A DNA stretch of 64,000 nucleotides from Pelosinus sp. UFO1. GTDB lineage: Bacteria > Bacillota > Negativicutes > DSM-13327. This document shows positions 49,514 through 57,533 of the stretch, piece after piece (positions within the stretch are counted from its first letter, which is position 1; the number at the start of each line of letters is the position of its first letter). A program made the translations under genes and the position numbers. Location of the stretch: assembly GCF_000725345.1 (NCBI RefSeq), contig NZ_CP008852.1, positions 4,146,001-4,210,000 on the forward strand, written 5' to 3'. Under the pieces are notes generated by a model. The model was not told the origin of the DNA. It did not search any database and saw only the letters and a list, made by a program, of their open reading frames with translations.

Positions 49514-49647
49514 ATACTGGGCGTACTGCTGAGGTAACCTGCTTTGCAGGCGTTTTCACGTCTCTTTTGAGTCTGTCTTAGTGGTTTTATTTATCAGTCC
49601 CTATTCCTGGCAGACTAGCAATCTAAATGCAATTTCTTTAACGTATT

Positions 49648-50040: not shown

Positions 50041-50205
50041 TTGGCAGACGAAAATTTAAAAAGTCCAAATAAGACTATTACCGAGCAATCCTCTTCCTGC
50101 TGTAAATTTTCAAACACTCAAGAATCAAATCATTATAAGGAAATACTGAGAGCATGCTTAAAACAAAATCCGGACTTAATTTCGAAAATACCCGAAAAAT
50201 ATTGA
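50041..50205 (+). CDS. 54-residue protein overlapping the membrane metallopeptidase gene
   Basis: TTG at 50041, eight bases after a perfect AAGGAGG. Begins MADENLKSPNKTITEQ and ends RACLKQNPDLISKIPEKY. Soluble, with three cysteines. Its last 52 bases overlap the next gene in a different frame, so the two are probably translationally coupled; the next gene's own SD is weak. No family recognised. Confidence 0.55.
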   Translation: MADENLKSPNKTITEQSSSCCKFSNTQESNHYKEILRACLKQNPDLISKIPEKY

Positions 50206-51239
50206 CAATAATATCAAAAGCAGTTAAAAGAGCGTCTTATTGCACCCTTTTAACTGCTTTTGTACTTTCAATGAAAATAGAGGATTTTTCATTAAAATCG
50301 CCTAACAATAATAAATTACACTTTATTATTGTCGGGATATTCGCAATGCTTTTTTATTTTTGGATTACATTGTTTTATCTCATTACCAAGCCCCTCGTTG
50401 GCTACTTAACTAACTACTATTTGATTGGAGTGAAACAAATGGAGAGATTTCCCTCTATGCTTTTAGAGGTCCAGCCCGAAATAAACGTAATTTGGAATTC
50501 CTTTGATAAAAAGACAAAAAAATACTGGGATGAAATACAAGCTACACTCAATAATACTCTTATTGTTCCCGGCTATCAGAGTGCTGAGATAAACAAAAAT
50601 AATTACGCAACTAACCAGTTGGTTACCACACATCCTATTATTCAACAGGAAACCGGTTATTCTTATTTTATTTTGTTATATCTTAATAGAAAAGAAGCTC
50701 AAATGTATGATGTTGCCCATGAACTAGCTCATATAGAAGTAGTTACCATGCATGGATATAGTTATCTGATGCTAAAAAGTCAGGTAGATTCTGATCATAT
50801 TGGGAATTTAACACCCCATATTTCATTAGTTTGCGACGTGGCAATTCACCCAGTCATTGACGGTATCTTGAAGGAACGCCGTCTTTTTTCAGATAAATTC
50901 TATCAAAGGAAGTATACAGGAATTCTTAATGGTTTGGAAAGAGCAGCAAAGGCATTTGCAATTTCCTCAAAAATTAATTTTCTAGATGCTTTCATTATAA
51001 TTGAAGCAAAGCATCGATTACGAAAACATATTTATAAACAGATAGTGAATCGAGCGGAAAGCATGGGACTGAATCCGTTGATTTCATTTGCACAAAAACT
51101 CCCCCTCTTCGAATTCAATCATAAGGATCCCCGAGAACTTGATGCAGCTATTCTTGCAACATGCAAGGAAATTGAAATTGATCTAGATAGTCTTGGATTA
51201 TTTCAACTAGTTAATAGGAATAGCGTGCCATTTGGGTAA
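50154..51239 (+). CDS. membrane-anchored putative zinc metallopeptidase
   Basis: 361 residues. Two hydrophobic segments (about 28-43 and 56-82) anchor it, then a soluble domain contains DVAHELAHIEV near 185, an HExxH zinc-binding motif (HELAH), followed by SDHIGNLTPHISLVCDVAIHPVIDGILKER, which could supply the third ligand. No known family is recognised; the fold could relate to M48-like or ImmA-like peptidases. Start ATG 50154 lies within the preceding small gene. It is isolated at the left edge of the accessory region. Confidence 0.6.
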   Translation: MLKTKSGLNFENTRKILTIISKAVKRASYCTLLTAFVLSMKIEDFSLKSPNNNKLHFIIVGIFAMLFYFWITLFYLITKPLVGYLTNYYLIGVKQMERFPSMLLEVQPEINVIWNSFDKKTKKYWDEIQATLNNTLIVPGYQSAEINKNNYATNQLVTTHPIIQQETGYSYFILLYLNRKEAQMYDVAHELAHIEVVTMHGYSYLMLKSQVDSDHIGNLTPHISLVCDVAIHPVIDGILKERRLFSDKFYQRKYTGILNGLERAAKAFAISSKINFLDAFIIIEAKHRLRKHIYKQIVNRAESMGLNPLISFAQKLPLFEFNHKDPRELDAAILATCKEIEIDLDSLGLFQLVNRNSVPFG

Positions 51240-51643
51240 ATTAAAAAATCCTTTTGAATTTACCCAAATTTTGAGAATAATATTCTAAAAGTAAGCCATC
51301 TCAACTGATCTGAGCCTTTGCCATTGGATACAAGCTTTGGGTTTAGGTCATTAATCAAATAGAGCTATATCAATGAAGAGAAACCCACTCAAGGACGGTC
51401 CAGAAAGCTTTGTGGCATTTTAAATTACATTATTTTCTTCAATCCTATAAGTAATTTTAAAATAAACCCTCCACTCTTCGACTAGTTCTCCAGAATCTCC
51501 TCATTTATATGAACTTATTTACTCCATCAATATAGGCTTCAAAATCCGCTTCTTTTATTGATCTACCCGAACTAATTTGAATTATTTGAACACCTGTAGC
51601 CTTGTAAAAAAGTTTGAACAGAAGCTACATAAATTCTATTCTA
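51240..51643. other. intergenic, no gene seen
   Basis: About 400 AT-rich bases after the metallopeptidase gene with no open frame that has an SD. There are short repeats of TTTGAACA also found beyond the palindrome at 51644-51711. Possibly decayed DNA. Confidence 0.4.
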
Positions 51644-51711
51644 ATTATTTTAAATACGCCATCATTTTGTTTTAAAAATTTTGAACAAAATGATGGCGTA
51701 TTTAAAATAAT
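51644..51711. repeat. perfect 28-bp inverted repeat (68-bp palindrome)
   Basis: Arms 51644-51671 and 51684-51711 are exact complements over 28 bases around a 12-base A/T loop; the arm core is ACGCCATCATTTTGTT. GTTTGAACA-like words flank both sides. It is far larger than needed for a terminator. Candidates are a miniature transposable element, a recombination site, or a very strong RNA hairpin downstream of thyX. Confidence 0.75.
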
Positions 51712-51827
51712 TTGTAGTTGTTTATAATAGTTTGAACATAGTAACTTTCTAACTGGTTTTTGATAAAATCTAAGGAACTTAATACCATTTTTCTGAGAAT
51801 ATTATGTTATATTATCCAAAAGTATCC

Positions 51828-52472
51828 TCAAGATATTTTAAAATCGATATCATCAAAAATGACTGGGATACGCTCCTTAAATTCCCTCAAAATTATGTTA
51901 GCTACTTCACGCATCTGAGGATGTGCTTTTATATCTGTTCTTAATTTCAAAAAATGTCTCCATTCTCTCAAATTCATTGTCATTACTATCTCTGTTTTCA
52001 AAGAGTTGGGTAAAACTGTTCGTGCTTCTTGTGGTGTGGCACCTAAACTAATCAATGAAAGATAATTAGTTTCAACTTCTTTTAAACTTGCTTCCCATAT
52101 GCGATACATTTCGGCATCTTCTGCGCTATTACCAGTCCAAAAGCACGGCTTAATAAATACTAATTCGTTACCGAATTTTTCGTTGGAATAATTACAATAT
52201 CTAGTACTTTCTTGACTGTAACTCGCAATTCTATGCCTAACTATTTCATGTGATACTCCACGGTCACAAATCACACGAACGGTAACACTACAGTGCTCAA
52301 TAACCGATTCGTGTCCCATCTTCATTATACTTTTTGCAAAATTTTGAGCAGATATATCTGTAATCTTATCCTCGCTTTTATAACAAACACGCCCATAGCG
52401 TTCAATCGACTTTAAAAGTTGTTCTCCTATAACATCACTTTCAATATAAGCCTGAGCATTAATTATTTTCAT
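51828..52472 (-). CDS. thyX: flavin-dependent thymidylate synthase ThyX
   Basis: 214 residues with the ThyX motif RHR-x7-S (Arg79-His-Arg81 to Ser89 in RHRIASYSQESTR), and LPNSLKTEIVMTMNLREWRHFLKLR, which holds the FAD and dUMP contacts. It makes dTMP from dUMP with FAD and methylene-tetrahydrofolate. It is the last gene of a tight operon with two PRTase proteins and a GHKL protein, starting 5 bases after the preceding stop with AAGGAG inside that gene. It may be the cell's own dTMP synthase captured in this locus, or a dedicated part of the system. Confidence 0.95.
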   Translation of the reverse strand: MKIINAQAYIESDVIGEQLLKSIERYGRVCYKSEDKITDISAQNFAKSIMKMGHESVIEHCSVTVRVICDRGVSHEIVRHRIASYSQESTRYCNYSNEKFGNELVFIKPCFWTGNSAEDAEMYRIWEASLKEVETNYLSLISLGATPQEARTVLPNSLKTEIVMTMNLREWRHFLKLRTDIKAHPQMREVANIILREFKERIPVIFDDIDFKIS

Positions 52473-52477
52473 GATAA

Positions 52478-54196
52478 TTACTCCTTTGTATAAAATTCGT
52501 GAATTTGTTCAAGTTTGTGCTTTACAATTGGGCATTCTTCTGGTTCTTTACCACAATGTCCAAACTTTATTTCATTACATATCGCATAAATTCTTAGATT
52601 CTCGAATTTTTCATATAATTCTTTGAGCCGTTTTTCATCTCCAGTAAAAAACAAGGTAATAACCCTTAATTCTTCAGCTTCAGATAAAAACCTATAATCG
52701 GTGTTGCTAATTATATTAGTAATGGTACTTGCTGTCGATATAACATCTGCTAATAACAATATTCTTTTCGAATTTACTTTTGCATACAATTCATATTCAT
52801 TGTATGCTTTTCGATAAGGGACTGGAATATAGGTATAAGGTTTATTGGTTGCAGCAGCTACTAGCGCACCTAATATATTACCTTCCATCCCTAATCCTAC
52901 GATCCCGTCGAATTGAACTTCTTTCGTTTTAATAACAGAAAATATAGCTTTACCGATTATTTCAATGTCCCTATCTTCTATTAATAATGAACCCGTATCT
53001 ATCCACCCGTGAGACCTTGAAGTATCAGACCAATGAAAGTGTCCAGATAAGACAGCATTTTTCTCACGAACCATTGATAAAATTTCGTCAGAGTAAATTC
53101 TTTGTTCATTACGTTCTTCAACTAAAAACGCTTGCTCAACTCCAGTTGTTTCCGGCAATATATCAGTTGGCCTACGCGCACTAATAATAGGCACACATTG
53201 TTTGACTTTTACACCATGTTTACCAATCTTTATATCCTTATTGTATTTAGTTGTATCAATATCCCATGCACCTTTTCCATAAAGACCATTGCCATCACAA
53301 ATATATCGTAATCTTTCAAGTTTGAAAAATAATACTCCGCTTTCTTCTTTTTCATATACTAGAAGCGCAGATGTATTTGAAATTTCAGGATCTTCTTTTG
53401 CAAAGCTTCCTACTGAACAAAAACAATTAGTTTCAGTTGTTTTTACTTCTAAGTTTTCACTAGTATGAACATGTCCACAAAGAAATGAAAATATACCCAT
53501 TGAATTTAAGGAGCCTTTTACTTCATCCCAGTTTTTAATGCTTTTTTCGGCAGAATCGAGGTTAGGGTTATGATGAACAACCGCTACCTTATAATAATCC
53601 TTAAACTCGCCCAATAAAGCACTCTCAATTTTTAAAATATCTTCTAAATTTAAATAACCGTAATGATCTTTAGACATACAACTTTCTTTATAATTTGAAT
53701 TCAAACAGACAAAAGCTATTTTTTTATCGTCAAACTCAAAAGGAATTATTGAAGGTTTACATGGCTCAAAATCATTGCCAAAAAAATCATTATAAAACTT
53801 TATAAAATATTGAAATTTAGCATCATGAAATTGATTAGGTTCTGGTTTAGGAACAGCATCACTATCCTGATGTACCGAACTATTTTTACCACGGTGTATA
53901 TCGTGATTACCTGGAACTATAATAAAATCCTGAGATTCTAAGTTAAATCCTTCTTTCAATTTTGTTAATTCCTTGAAAACGATTTCATAGTCATCTCTTG
54001 AACCTTCATTAGCTAAGTCACCTGTGACAACGACTTTTTTTAGTTCTGCATCCCAATCATGAAGTTTCTCTTTAGTGTCATGAATAAACTGTTCTATATA
54101 ATATTGTTTACTAATTGTTCGGGAGGGAATACGTCCGTTGCCAGGATTAAACTCAGTTAAGTGTAAATCAGAAATGTGAAGGATTGCAGTTTTCAT
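52478..54196 (-). CDS. metallophosphoesterase fused to an orotate-PRTase-like domain
   Basis: 572 residues. N-terminal calcineurin-like phosphoesterase (1-290) with all metal motifs: HISDLHL (Asp10, His12), VVTGDLANEG, VPGNHDIHR, VVHHNP and CGHVHTS. A linker follows, then a C-terminal PRTase domain (about 370-572) with an OPRT-like LSGHFHWSDTSRSHGWIDTG entry and a PRPP loop ILLLADVISTASTI (Asp484) in which the usual first acidic residue is Ala. The tail has CGKEPEECPIVKHKL. The fusion suggests a protein that makes or releases nucleotides or phospho-sugars and acts with the other PRTase protein. It abuts the preceding gene with no spacing. Confidence 0.8.
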   Translation of the reverse strand: MKTAILHISDLHLTEFNPGNGRIPSRTISKQYYIEQFIHDTKEKLHDWDAELKKVVVTGDLANEGSRDDYEIVFKELTKLKEGFNLESQDFIIVPGNHDIHRGKNSSVHQDSDAVPKPEPNQFHDAKFQYFIKFYNDFFGNDFEPCKPSIIPFEFDDKKIAFVCLNSNYKESCMSKDHYGYLNLEDILKIESALLGEFKDYYKVAVVHHNPNLDSAEKSIKNWDEVKGSLNSMGIFSFLCGHVHTSENLEVKTTETNCFCSVGSFAKEDPEISNTSALLVYEKEESGVLFFKLERLRYICDGNGLYGKGAWDIDTTKYNKDIKIGKHGVKVKQCVPIISARRPTDILPETTGVEQAFLVEERNEQRIYSDEILSMVREKNAVLSGHFHWSDTSRSHGWIDTGSLLIEDRDIEIIGKAIFSVIKTKEVQFDGIVGLGMEGNILGALVAAATNKPYTYIPVPYRKAYNEYELYAKVNSKRILLLADVISTASTITNIISNTDYRFLSEAEELRVITLFFTGDEKRLKELYEKFENLRIYAICNEIKFGHCGKEPEECPIVKHKLEQIHEFYTKE

Positions 54197-55297
54197 TTAC
54201 TTTGAGTCCCTCCCTGAACATTTATCACAAAAGTCTGTGCGTATAATGTAGTCAATTGGATTGTACTGTTTATTAATTGTTATTAACCCCAGTTTATGTT
54301 CTGAATTACCTACATCGGTTAATTGACAGTCTACAATACATACACTACCAATACACTCTCCCCCGCTAACTTGAATAATACTTTCAACTCTTTTCACTTC
54401 CGTGCCTAAGCAAATAACATCAGCAACAATAAGATACTTATTATTCTTACGGATTTCCTTCGAAAAACTTGTTTTGTAAATATTGGCTATTGGTCCTAAA
54501 TGATCTAAATACATAAAATTTACACACAATAGCCTAGATAATATCAAAGCAATGTATGATCCGTTTAGTGATTGACAAAACAATGATATTTCATCGTGCT
54601 TTGTCATATCTTTAGGTATCATTTCTTTTTTTATAATTTTAAGTGCCAGTTGAAAAATACAGTAATTAAAAAAGTTAGTTTTTTGCATCAAACCTTTAAT
54701 ATTAATATATTTAGACGAATATACCGTACTTGAAAATTGTGGTTTATCTGTAGTTATACTATGTTCATCTATTGCTTTCTCAAGTATTGATTTAAAACCT
54801 TGCTGTTTTTCTAATGCCCAGTTCTTGCTACCAACCTGATATAAATGTTGCAAATTAGTATAGGTAAAATAATGCTCAAACATATTGCTGTTAAAAGAAT
54901 TTTTCTCAATTACTTCATTGTTCTTCATAATTTTTAAAACAATTTTATCTACATCACTAACCAAACACATCCCTATATTTGCAAATACAACCGATCTTTT
55001 TTGGGACAATATCAGTAATACTATCTTACTAAATATCTCTTCAGTATTTGATTGAATGGCTCTTATGTAACTAAAATCAAAAACTATGTATTGCGATGTA
55101 GAATACTCTATACCAGATAAGCAATTAAACAAATTACTTAACACCGACTGTGTAAGAGTATATGAATTCATTCCTCTCTCAAGCTTTGTTTGACCCCCTT
55201 CATATGTTGAGCAGTGGTTTTCTATTGAGCCAAAGACTTGTTCTGCATATAAATCAATTATTATATTTTCACCTTGTGAAATTAGATAATTTAACAT
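54197..55297 (-). CDS. STAS-like / phosphoribosyltransferase-like protein
   Basis: 366 residues. The N-terminal part has a STAS-like strand-helix pattern, SQYIVFDFSYIRAIQSNTEEIFSKIV then SVVFANIGMCLVS. The C-terminal part (about 225-366) is a type I PRTase-like fold with loop NKYLIVADVICLGTEV (Asp293), again with Ala before the Asp, as in the neighbouring fusion protein. The end TDFCDKCSG forms a CxxC. It overlaps the preceding GHKL gene by seven bases and abuts the next gene. Catalytic activity is uncertain given the altered loop. Confidence 0.65.
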   Translation of the reverse strand: MLNYLISQGENIIIDLYAEQVFGSIENHCSTYEGGQTKLERGMNSYTLTQSVLSNLFNCLSGIEYSTSQYIVFDFSYIRAIQSNTEEIFSKIVLLILSQKRSVVFANIGMCLVSDVDKIVLKIMKNNEVIEKNSFNSNMFEHYFTYTNLQHLYQVGSKNWALEKQQGFKSILEKAIDEHSITTDKPQFSSTVYSSKYINIKGLMQKTNFFNYCIFQLALKIIKKEMIPKDMTKHDEISLFCQSLNGSYIALILSRLLCVNFMYLDHLGPIANIYKTSFSKEIRKNNKYLIVADVICLGTEVKRVESIIQVSGGECIGSVCIVDCQLTDVGNSEHKLGLITINKQYNPIDYIIRTDFCDKCSGRDSK

Positions 55298-56337
55298 CCG
55301 TATCCCTCTTGTCGTGTAAATTCAACTTCAACATGAACACCTGGAAATTTAGTTTTAAAAAATCTGGCAGACGAATATTGCGGATCTCTGTCAGCAGTTT
55401 CTAATAAACAATCTAAACATTTTTTTATATCTTCTTCACAATTTTTACATTTATTATGTGTAAAAATTACTTGAGCTGATTGATAATGAATTCTTAAGAT
55501 GCCATTATTCTTTGTTATAATATTTTTTAACTCCCATAGATTTTCTCTTTCTTTTGATTTTGAGTAGCTTAGAACATCCATTATCACTAAAAAATCTTCT
55601 AAATCTATGCCGGTTTTTTGGGAATAAATCTTATAATTAGCTTCTAAAACCTTGAGTTTTATATTTTTTCTCTCTAAAGACTTTCGAAAGCCAATCCCGT
55701 AATCGCTTAAAGATATCTTAGAACCGTACTTATTAGTTTGCATAAATGCAAAACATTCTGTACCACTATAGAGAATTGAATTACAAATTAGTTCTGTTAA
55801 TACATCTAAAGTTTTCTTCACTTCTTGACTATCAAGAGATCCTTGATCTTCAATAACATCCTTATAATCGTTTAATACCTTTCCAAACCTCATTTTTTCA
55901 AATAATTCATTTCGATAAAACTCTTGATCTTCAAGTTTCTTATTATAATAATCAGCAAGTGGTAAATAATACTGCAACTTATGTTTATCGCGATATTGTT
56001 TATCAACAGGAAAGCCGCCTAGAAAACGCTCATCAATCTCATAAACACTAAACTTAGATTGAACGATTTTAAAGAAACCTATCTCGTTTAAGAAAAAAAG
56101 AATTCGTGGATTCCACGAAATTTGTAAGGGAATTTGACTATGATGAAATTTACTTAGATATAAACCTAACGATAAGATATTCGGAATTACCAGTGTATCC
56201 ATCCATTCCACTTTCTCTAAGGATAAATTAGGTGCAATCCTTCCACCGTTCGTCTTATAAAAAGAAGAAAGTTCTTGCAGAAATTTGTTATAGAAGTTAT
56301 ATGATGTAATCTTACTCTCAAAAAAAATTGTTTGCAC
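55291..56337 (-). CDS. STAS-like domain fused to a GHKL ATPase
   Basis: 348 residues from GTG 56337, nine bases after AAGGTGG (a TTG six bases earlier is too close to the SD). The N-terminal region KVEWMDTLVIPNILSLGLYLSK...IPLQISW resembles a STAS fold. Residues about 175-300 form a GHKL ATPase with an N-box ELICNSILYSG and a DYGIGFRKS G1-like motif. A knuckle CKNCEEDIKKCLDC near 305 looks like a zinc site. No H-box is present, so it is not a classical kinase; it looks like an anti-sigma-type or signalling ATPase. First gene of the four-gene operon. Confidence 0.65.
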   Translation of the reverse strand: MQTIFFESKITSYNFYNKFLQELSSFYKTNGGRIAPNLSLEKVEWMDTLVIPNILSLGLYLSKFHHSQIPLQISWNPRILFFLNEIGFFKIVQSKFSVYEIDERFLGGFPVDKQYRDKHKLQYYLPLADYYNKKLEDQEFYRNELFEKMRFGKVLNDYKDVIEDQGSLDSQEVKKTLDVLTELICNSILYSGTECFAFMQTNKYGSKISLSDYGIGFRKSLERKNIKLKVLEANYKIYSQKTGIDLEDFLVIMDVLSYSKSKERENLWELKNIITKNNGILRIHYQSAQVIFTHNKCKNCEEDIKKCLDCLLETADRDPQYSSARFFKTKFPGVHVEVEFTRQEGYGC

Positions 56338-56775
56338 TTGCAAAATCCACCTTTAAATAAATTTTATCTCATCCATCGTAGGTTTGCTAAACGCAATTAA
56401 CTATTTATTTAACCAATCTGAATTAATTATTGACGTAATTTAAACAGATATTATATGTTATGTCCCGCTATACGCATGGCTCATTTGAAACCATAGCACT
56501 AATCCTATTAACTTTCAAAATATCCCATTAAATATTTACATTCGCTATATCATCCTAAATTCCTTGCAATATAATGCATATTTCCATTTTAAGAGCAATA
56601 TCTTTTCAATGGAAATATGCAATTTCCCTAGATCTTTCTTCTGTTACCCAAATTCTTTTCACCACAGAAGTCTTCAATTATACTTTCATAGTTTTTTACG
56701 ATATATCCACGGTAAGCGTAAAATAGCTAAGTGGATAGTTTTCAACCTAACTCCATGAGATAATATCTCTAAATT

Positions 56776-56878: not shown

Positions 56879-57352
56879 TTATCCAGCAATGTCGCAGTAG
56901 CGGACAGACCGTTGCGGCCGTATAATTTCGTCCTCTAGTTTTTCAGATAATTCCCAAACGAGATTAAACCAACCATCTTTACAGTCAAAATGAAATAAAA
57001 TTTCTTCGTTAAGAAATAGTGGATAATATTTAGGGTATAAATTTGGAAACGCATTTGCTATGGTAAATCCCTAAACCACGTCATTAAATTTTTTGCGTCT
57101 TCCTCCTTGCTAGTTCCTAAAACATACATAGCCCTAATGAATTGAGCGTGGGTAAACATTACTATAAACCTTTCTTCAAGTCGGTTTAGACGGTCAATTG
57201 CAGTCTTTGCACGGGATAGCAGCATATTAAAACTCTCCACTCCTTCTCCACCTACATAGTCAGGATCAAACCGTTCCCAGTATTCATTTACCCTTTCCTT
57301 GCGTTCAGCAGCTTTTCTTCATTTGTAATATGTACTCTTCTATAGTAAGCAT
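56879..57352 (-). pseudogene. decayed gene fragments (histidine phosphatase-like and others)
   Basis: A good start, ATG 57352 with AAAGGAG, gives MLTIEEYILQMKKSC and then stops. A +1 shift resumes as KAAERKERVNEYWERFDPDYVGG...RLEERFIVMFTHAQFIRAMYVLG to a stop at 57058; THAQFIRAM resembles the C-terminal His motif of histidine phosphatases. A third frame then reads PNLYPKYYPLFLNEEILFHFDCKDGW to a stop at 56879. At least two frame changes are needed, so this is a broken gene or a mosaic of two. Confidence 0.5.
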
Positions 57353-57533
57353 TCTGTATTCTCCTTTCTTCATTCCATAACACTACTTAATTTAATCAAT
57401 GGTTTTTATAACATAGCGATATATAAAACGTTTCACCTCCCAGTGACAGATCAATTTATCACTTAAAAAAAGAGACCTTTTTAATATTCCATTAATTTAC
57501 ACTATAGCATAATTATCACTATATATAGGTATT
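57353..57533. other. intergenic, no gene seen
   Basis: AT-rich gap holding the SD of the decayed gene and nothing else recognisable. Confidence 0.4.

Follow-up and report, generated by a model that had tools for sequence, protein, structure and literature searches.

Organization of the operon

What purpose is served by an operon that joins a putative ATPase switch, two orotate-PRTase-like domains and a phosphohydrolase to a thymidylate synthase, in a host that has a thymidylate synthase elsewhere? This question is raised by four co-directional ORFs at positions 51828-56343 on the minus strand of the window, by which we mean the whole stretch of 64,000 nucleotides analysed here. A previous interpretation made from the letters and their translations, hereafter the sequence-only reading, had described four packed genes, and the ORFs were found as it had them: genes 1 and 2 overlap by 7 bases, genes 2 and 3 abut with 0 bases between, and genes 3 and 4 are 5 bases apart. 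Gene 1 (55291..56343, minus strand, 350 aa, starting at TTG 56343 or GTG 56337) encodes a STAS-like N-terminal region followed by a putative GHKL (Bergerat) ATPase. Gene 2 (54197..55297, minus strand, 366 aa) encodes an N-terminal region, STAS-like by eye only, and a first orotate-PRTase-like domain (PRTase 1), and gene 3 (52478..54196, minus strand, 572 aa) a calcineurin-like metallophosphoesterase (approximately residues 1-265) joined to a second orotate-PRTase-like domain (PRTase 2, approximately residues 369-572). The last gene (51828..52472, minus strand, 214 aa) encodes a flavin-dependent thymidylate synthase, ThyX, which is a phage-type second copy. Just downstream of thyX there is a 34-nt inverted repeat (51643..51712, 94% complementary, with a 2-nt spacer), possibly a bidirectional terminator, which separates the operon from a convergent gene at 50154-51239. 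The latter encodes a membrane protein of 361 aa with a HELAH metallopeptidase-like motif and no clear family match.

Domain assignment of the encoded proteins

The N box (ELICNSILYSG) and G1 box (LSDYGIG) of gene 1 are kept in the three homologues, while the G2 box is degenerate. A profile search of the PDB gave a sole and weak match, the ATPase domain of the WalK/YycG kinase (E 0.0064), and hhalign aligned gene 1 (E 7.9e-5) with a STAS-HATPase-type protein, the alignment spanning the STAS-like as well as the ATPase part of gene 1. This protein (L168:14290-15276), encoded in the same genomic block at a distance of some 20 kb, itself scores 26.1 bits against HATPase_c, slightly below the cut-off. 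Taken together, the two boxes, the PDB match and the hhalign alignment point to an ATPase of the GHKL kind, with weak profile support. The AlphaFold model of gene 1, obtained from a three-sequence alignment, had a pLDDT of 49.5, and Foldseek with this low-confidence model returned nothing below E 0.3, several of the weak matches being STAS proteins such as SpoIIAA and RsbS. From the domain set put forward in the sequence-only reading, ThyX, the phosphoesterase and both PRTase domains were recovered, and the putative GHKL domain has the support of the N and G1 boxes and the weak profiles; the zinc knuckle claimed for gene 1 is not a conserved feature of the homologues.

Residues 189-343 of gene 2 match the NCBIfam profile pyrE_Therm (E 5.2e-8), its homologues give orotate-PRTase-like profile matches of 2e-4 and 5.5e-6, and its matches among PDB profiles are mostly OPRTs, the best of them 4paw (2.6e-4). 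The PRPP loop is altered (ADVICLGTE), reading D-[VF]-I-C-L-G-T-E across all three homologues, and with this changed loop PRTase 1 may be inactive. For the N-terminal region, profile searches yielded no STAS or DUF4325 match, and the AlphaFold model (three-sequence alignment) had a pLDDT of 34. In gene 3, the N-terminal part matches Pfam Metallophos over the cut-off (1.3e-10) and has all of the metal motifs DLH, GDL, GNHD and GHVH intact; residues 2-210 also match NF053862, DS9_1_antiphage, at E 1.4e-24 and 86.8 bits, under the curated cut-off of 420 bits. PRTase 2 matches UMP synthase/OPRT by PDB profile (3.1e-6) and is related to PRTase 1 (hhalign E 3e-4). By profile, both domains appear to be type I, orotate-PRTase-like PRTases, their active sites being judged by motif alone. 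Many weak matches to gene 3 in other genomes were rejected as ordinary PRTases, phosphoesterases or unrelated proteins.

Conservation of the four genes as a unit

The GHKL profile of gene 1 has full-length matches in 2/398 genomes of the phylum, one of the two being the window genome. Short peptide patterns, which are a limited means of searching, were run against 84,980 species genomes and retrieved two distant ones, Desulfosporosinus sp. FKB and a MAG of Thermincola ferriacetica. Both show the identical four-gene order, with junctions from a 4-base overlap to a 17-base gap, and the operon set comprises three known members (the window, L046/L077 and L035/L078). All four genes are thus kept in order in the three genomes that carry the GHKL gene, in agreement with the earlier view that they form one unit; the same reading had proposed to look for the trio of genes 1-3 across genomes, and the trio occurs together in all three members, always with thyX. 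Surveys of ORC-CDC6-like and HD-CE proteins found no further operon members. Among viral contigs, queries with genes 2 and 3 gave nothing, and with alignments only a Desulfosporosinus-type contig; no gene 1 homologue was found on plasmids and no whole gene 3 homologue on plasmids or phages.

Compared with the window, the relatives share 28-32% identity in gene 1, 23-28% in gene 2 and 19-24% in gene 3, and approximately 62-63% in ThyX. In gene 3 of both relatives, the calcineurin-like slot is occupied by an HD-CE phosphohydrolase (Pfam PF24391, 1e-20 and 3e-16) with intact HD motifs. The presence of either phosphohydrolase fold in one and the same slot suggests that both act on the same type of substrate, which is directly testable. 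The interchangeable phosphohydrolases would also suit a GHKL-gated small-molecule pathway, in which the PRTases would couple a base with PRPP, ThyX would methylate the pyrimidine nucleotide and the phosphohydrolase would dephosphorylate it, giving a nucleoside-like signal or inhibitor; two PRTase-like domains, a methylating enzyme and a phosphohydrolase make natural consecutive steps. We consider such a pathway quite unlikely, however, given that by established enzymology the substrate of ThyX is dUMP and not ribonucleotides, and that a transporter, base-modifying or ligase gene is present in 0/3 operons.

An additional ThyX of phage type

Gene 4 matches Pfam Thy1 (8.2e-53) and NCBIfam TIGR02170 (1.3e-42) over the curated cut-off and has the motifs RHRx7S and NLREWRHF intact, so that by its sequence it is ThyX beyond doubt. 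The host has its housekeeping ThyX separately, at G000:C1:642551, common to its genus, and no ThyA. The existence of this ordinary copy disposes of the alternative, raised in the sequence-only reading, that the operon ThyX is a housekeeping gene caught in the operon. An own ThyX is likewise present, and ThyA absent, in every other host examined (Thermincola, Desulfosporosinus and the genomes G430 and G080), and the ThyX of the operon is therefore an extra copy in every case. A second ThyX was found in none of the seven congeners.

The clade of the window ThyX contains many phage ThyX proteins of 60-70% identity, plus the sole ThyX of some genomes of the phylum. In the ThyX tree, the copies from the two HD-type operons are sisters (100/95) and the window copy is not placed with either, while a single clade of the three operon copies is not rejected (p-AU 0.37). 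The tree does not place the window ThyX relative to the other two operons, and so a phage-type ThyX may have been recruited independently into the window operon. The richness of this clade in phage proteins and the lack of a firm grouping of the window copy with the other operon copies speak for ThyX as a hitch-hiking phage gene, with genes 1-3 alone making up a system that works without it. Against this, thyX is the final gene in 3/3 operons, 5-17 bases after gene 3, and ends two further conflict-type clusters (see below), two of the operon copies are sisters, and a clade of all three is not rejected; we regard a passenger ThyX as unlikely.

A variable genomic block

Synteny with the nearest congener (G403) extends to window position 49541 and starts again at position 82045 of the same frame, with a block of 32.5 kb between. 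Besides the operon, this block contains a Wadjet system, a WYL regulator, Tn7-like genes (a tnsA-B fusion, tnsC and tniQ), a second STAS/GHKL-type protein and a type I-like restriction fusion. The operon is absent from the same site in G403, which has there 59 kb of other DNA including phage-like genes; the other congeners do not have the flanking M3 peptidase, and so the island comparison rests on this one relative. The defence-island setting proposed from the sequence is thus borne out as a variable island with defence genes, absent from G403. The adjoining Wadjet operon had been called complete, and JetB, JetC and JetD do match PADLOC, but JetA falls under the threshold and is placed by position only. 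Decayed genes had also been claimed nearby, and a histidine-phosphatase remnant is indeed found upstream of the operon (window 56950-57400). An intact histidine-phosphatase homologue and a PP1-like phosphoesterase gene are situated on the other side of Wadjet (L168:5798-6577).

The Tn7-like genes (L168:8225-13360; G000:C1:4216224-4221359) encode a TnsA-TnsB fusion of 891 aa, a TnsC/TniB-like ATPase and TniQ, and may be what moved the block. At L168:13664-15276 (G000:C1:4221663-4223275), the second STAS/GHKL-type protein is divergent from a STAS-like DUF4325-type protein (sub-threshold match) and is adjoined by a type I-like restriction-methylase fusion of 1271 aa; this region looks like another switch-controlled conflict module. 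In the relatives, the Desulfosporosinus operon has as its neighbours integrases, an AriA/OLD-type ATPase and a resolvase. The neighbours of the Thermincola operon, as read from the sequence, are tyrosine recombinases, a restriction-like gene and a UvrD-like helicase.

These surroundings bear on two further explanations. OPRT-like and ThyX domains would be at home in an ordinary operon for pyrimidine salvage or biosynthesis, and a salvage operon conserved outside islands had been named in the sequence-only reading as the finding that would count against its own view; what we observed is an operon absent from G403 and present in 2/398 genomes of the phylum. This rarity, the GHKL switch, the island setting, a host that already has its own ThyX and congeners that do without a second one (0/7) make a plain pyrimidine operon very unlikely. 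Mobile or variable DNA carries the operon in all three cases, as would be the case for a toxin-antitoxin-like or element-stabilising module of a mobile block, not directed at phages; however, the enzyme and switch parts of the four genes and the absence of a small antitoxin-like gene among them leave such a module highly improbable.

Proposed function

We interpret the operon, from its sequence and by analogy, as an accessory, horizontally moving conflict system, most likely anti-phage, that works through pyrimidine-nucleotide chemistry, and we hold the chances of this reading to be about even. In its favour we count the four-gene order kept at 19-32% identity in genes 1-3, the exchange of metallophosphoesterase for HD-CE, the OPRT-like PRTases, the ThyX-ended clusters with HD-CE or PRTase-CE, the variable block, and the integrases and AriA/OLD gene near one relative. 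Against it we count that only three members are known, that the defence library calls none of genes 1, 2 and 4, that the DS-9 match is below the cut-off, that PRTase 1, with its changed loop, may be inactive and that HD-CE often occurs without ThyX or PRTase.

In the proposed mechanism, gene 1 would act as an ATP-dependent STAS/GHKL switch which, on sensing infection or a partner protein, would set free PRTase 1 and PRTase 2; as type I PRTases dimerise, these two would probably form a heteromer. The fusion protein of phosphohydrolase and PRTase would then act on PRPP or pyrimidine (deoxy)nucleotides and so lower or alter the pool required for phage replication. OPRT and ThyX are both enzymes of pyrimidine nucleotides, which is why we favour these nucleotides or PRPP as the target. 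ThyX could provide the dTMP that allows host recovery or survival; alternatively, it could feed the substrate or form a pathway step. That the three operons represent a new class of conflict system, composed of a STAS/GHKL switch, an OPRT-like pair and an exchangeable phosphohydrolase acting on the pyrimidine pool, with a phage-derived ThyX as dTMP rescue or pathway step, is a tentative proposal that we find possible but doubtful. If true, it would tie pyrimidine nucleotide chemistry to bacterial immunity via a partner-switching ATPase, and ThyX, usually viewed as a housekeeping or phage replication gene, would acquire a part in defence.

Comparison with known systems

The sequence-only reading knew of no described system with this gene set, and our comparison agrees within the sources covered: no model of PADLOC, NCBIfam or Pfam names the four-gene set, PADLOC makes no call on genes 1, 2 and 4, and the set is not described in the open-access literature covered, an absence that is no proof.

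Among the nearest systems are the conflict families HD-CE, PRTase-CE and the ORC-CDC6-like ATPases (PF24391, PF24390 and PF24389), of which HD-CE fills the gene 3 effector slot in both relatives. The window, by contrast, has a calcineurin-like domain in this slot, a GHKL protein replacing the ORC-CDC6-like ATPase and PRTase domains unlike PRTase-CE, with no PRTase-CE match in Pfam; its proteins have no Pfam match to these families, HD-CE being found, within the operon set, in the two relatives only, and its own genome has no ORC-CDC6-like match. Two clusters end in the same type of ThyX. One (L034:7679-13269) reads DNA methylase, HD-CE, ORC-CDC6-like, unknown and ThyX, and the other (L117:4188-9673) is the same with PRTase-CE in place of HD-CE, the gene before ThyX encoding a protein of 323-329 aa in both. 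Having been found through ThyX, they establish that the linkage exists and do not give its frequency; around HD-CE genes found independently, the examined flanks contain neither a ThyX nor a PRTase homologue, except in the Thermincola operon. Elsewhere HD-CE is fused to HATPase domains, which gives the pairing of a GHKL ATPase with a hydrolase effector a precedent, although in these fusions both reside in one protein and neither ThyX nor an OPRT-like domain was seen.

DS-8 and DS-9, found with DefensePredictor, are metallophosphatase anti-phage systems whose catalytic residues are needed for phage defence (PMC13092281). Gene 3 has a related metallophosphoesterase domain (NF053862), but the window has neither the NACHT of DS-8 nor the HAD partner of DS-9 and adds the PRTase fusion, GHKL protein, second PRTase and ThyX; with 86.8 against 420 bits and no HAD gene in the operon, it falls outside DS-9. 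The DprA-PRTase pair of P2-like phages is a tested anti-phage operon (PMC9122126) that likewise includes a PRTase, whereas the window has no DprA. The support that these systems lend to a defence role is by analogy and is no proof of defence for the window operon. Phage ThyX proteins (phrog_85) resemble gene 4 in identity (approximately 45-71%) and intact motifs, and differ in that the phage copies examined sit among phage genes and outside any operon of this kind. Within the libraries and open-access literature covered, then, the parts of the operon were already known, and their combination and the ThyX tail are new.
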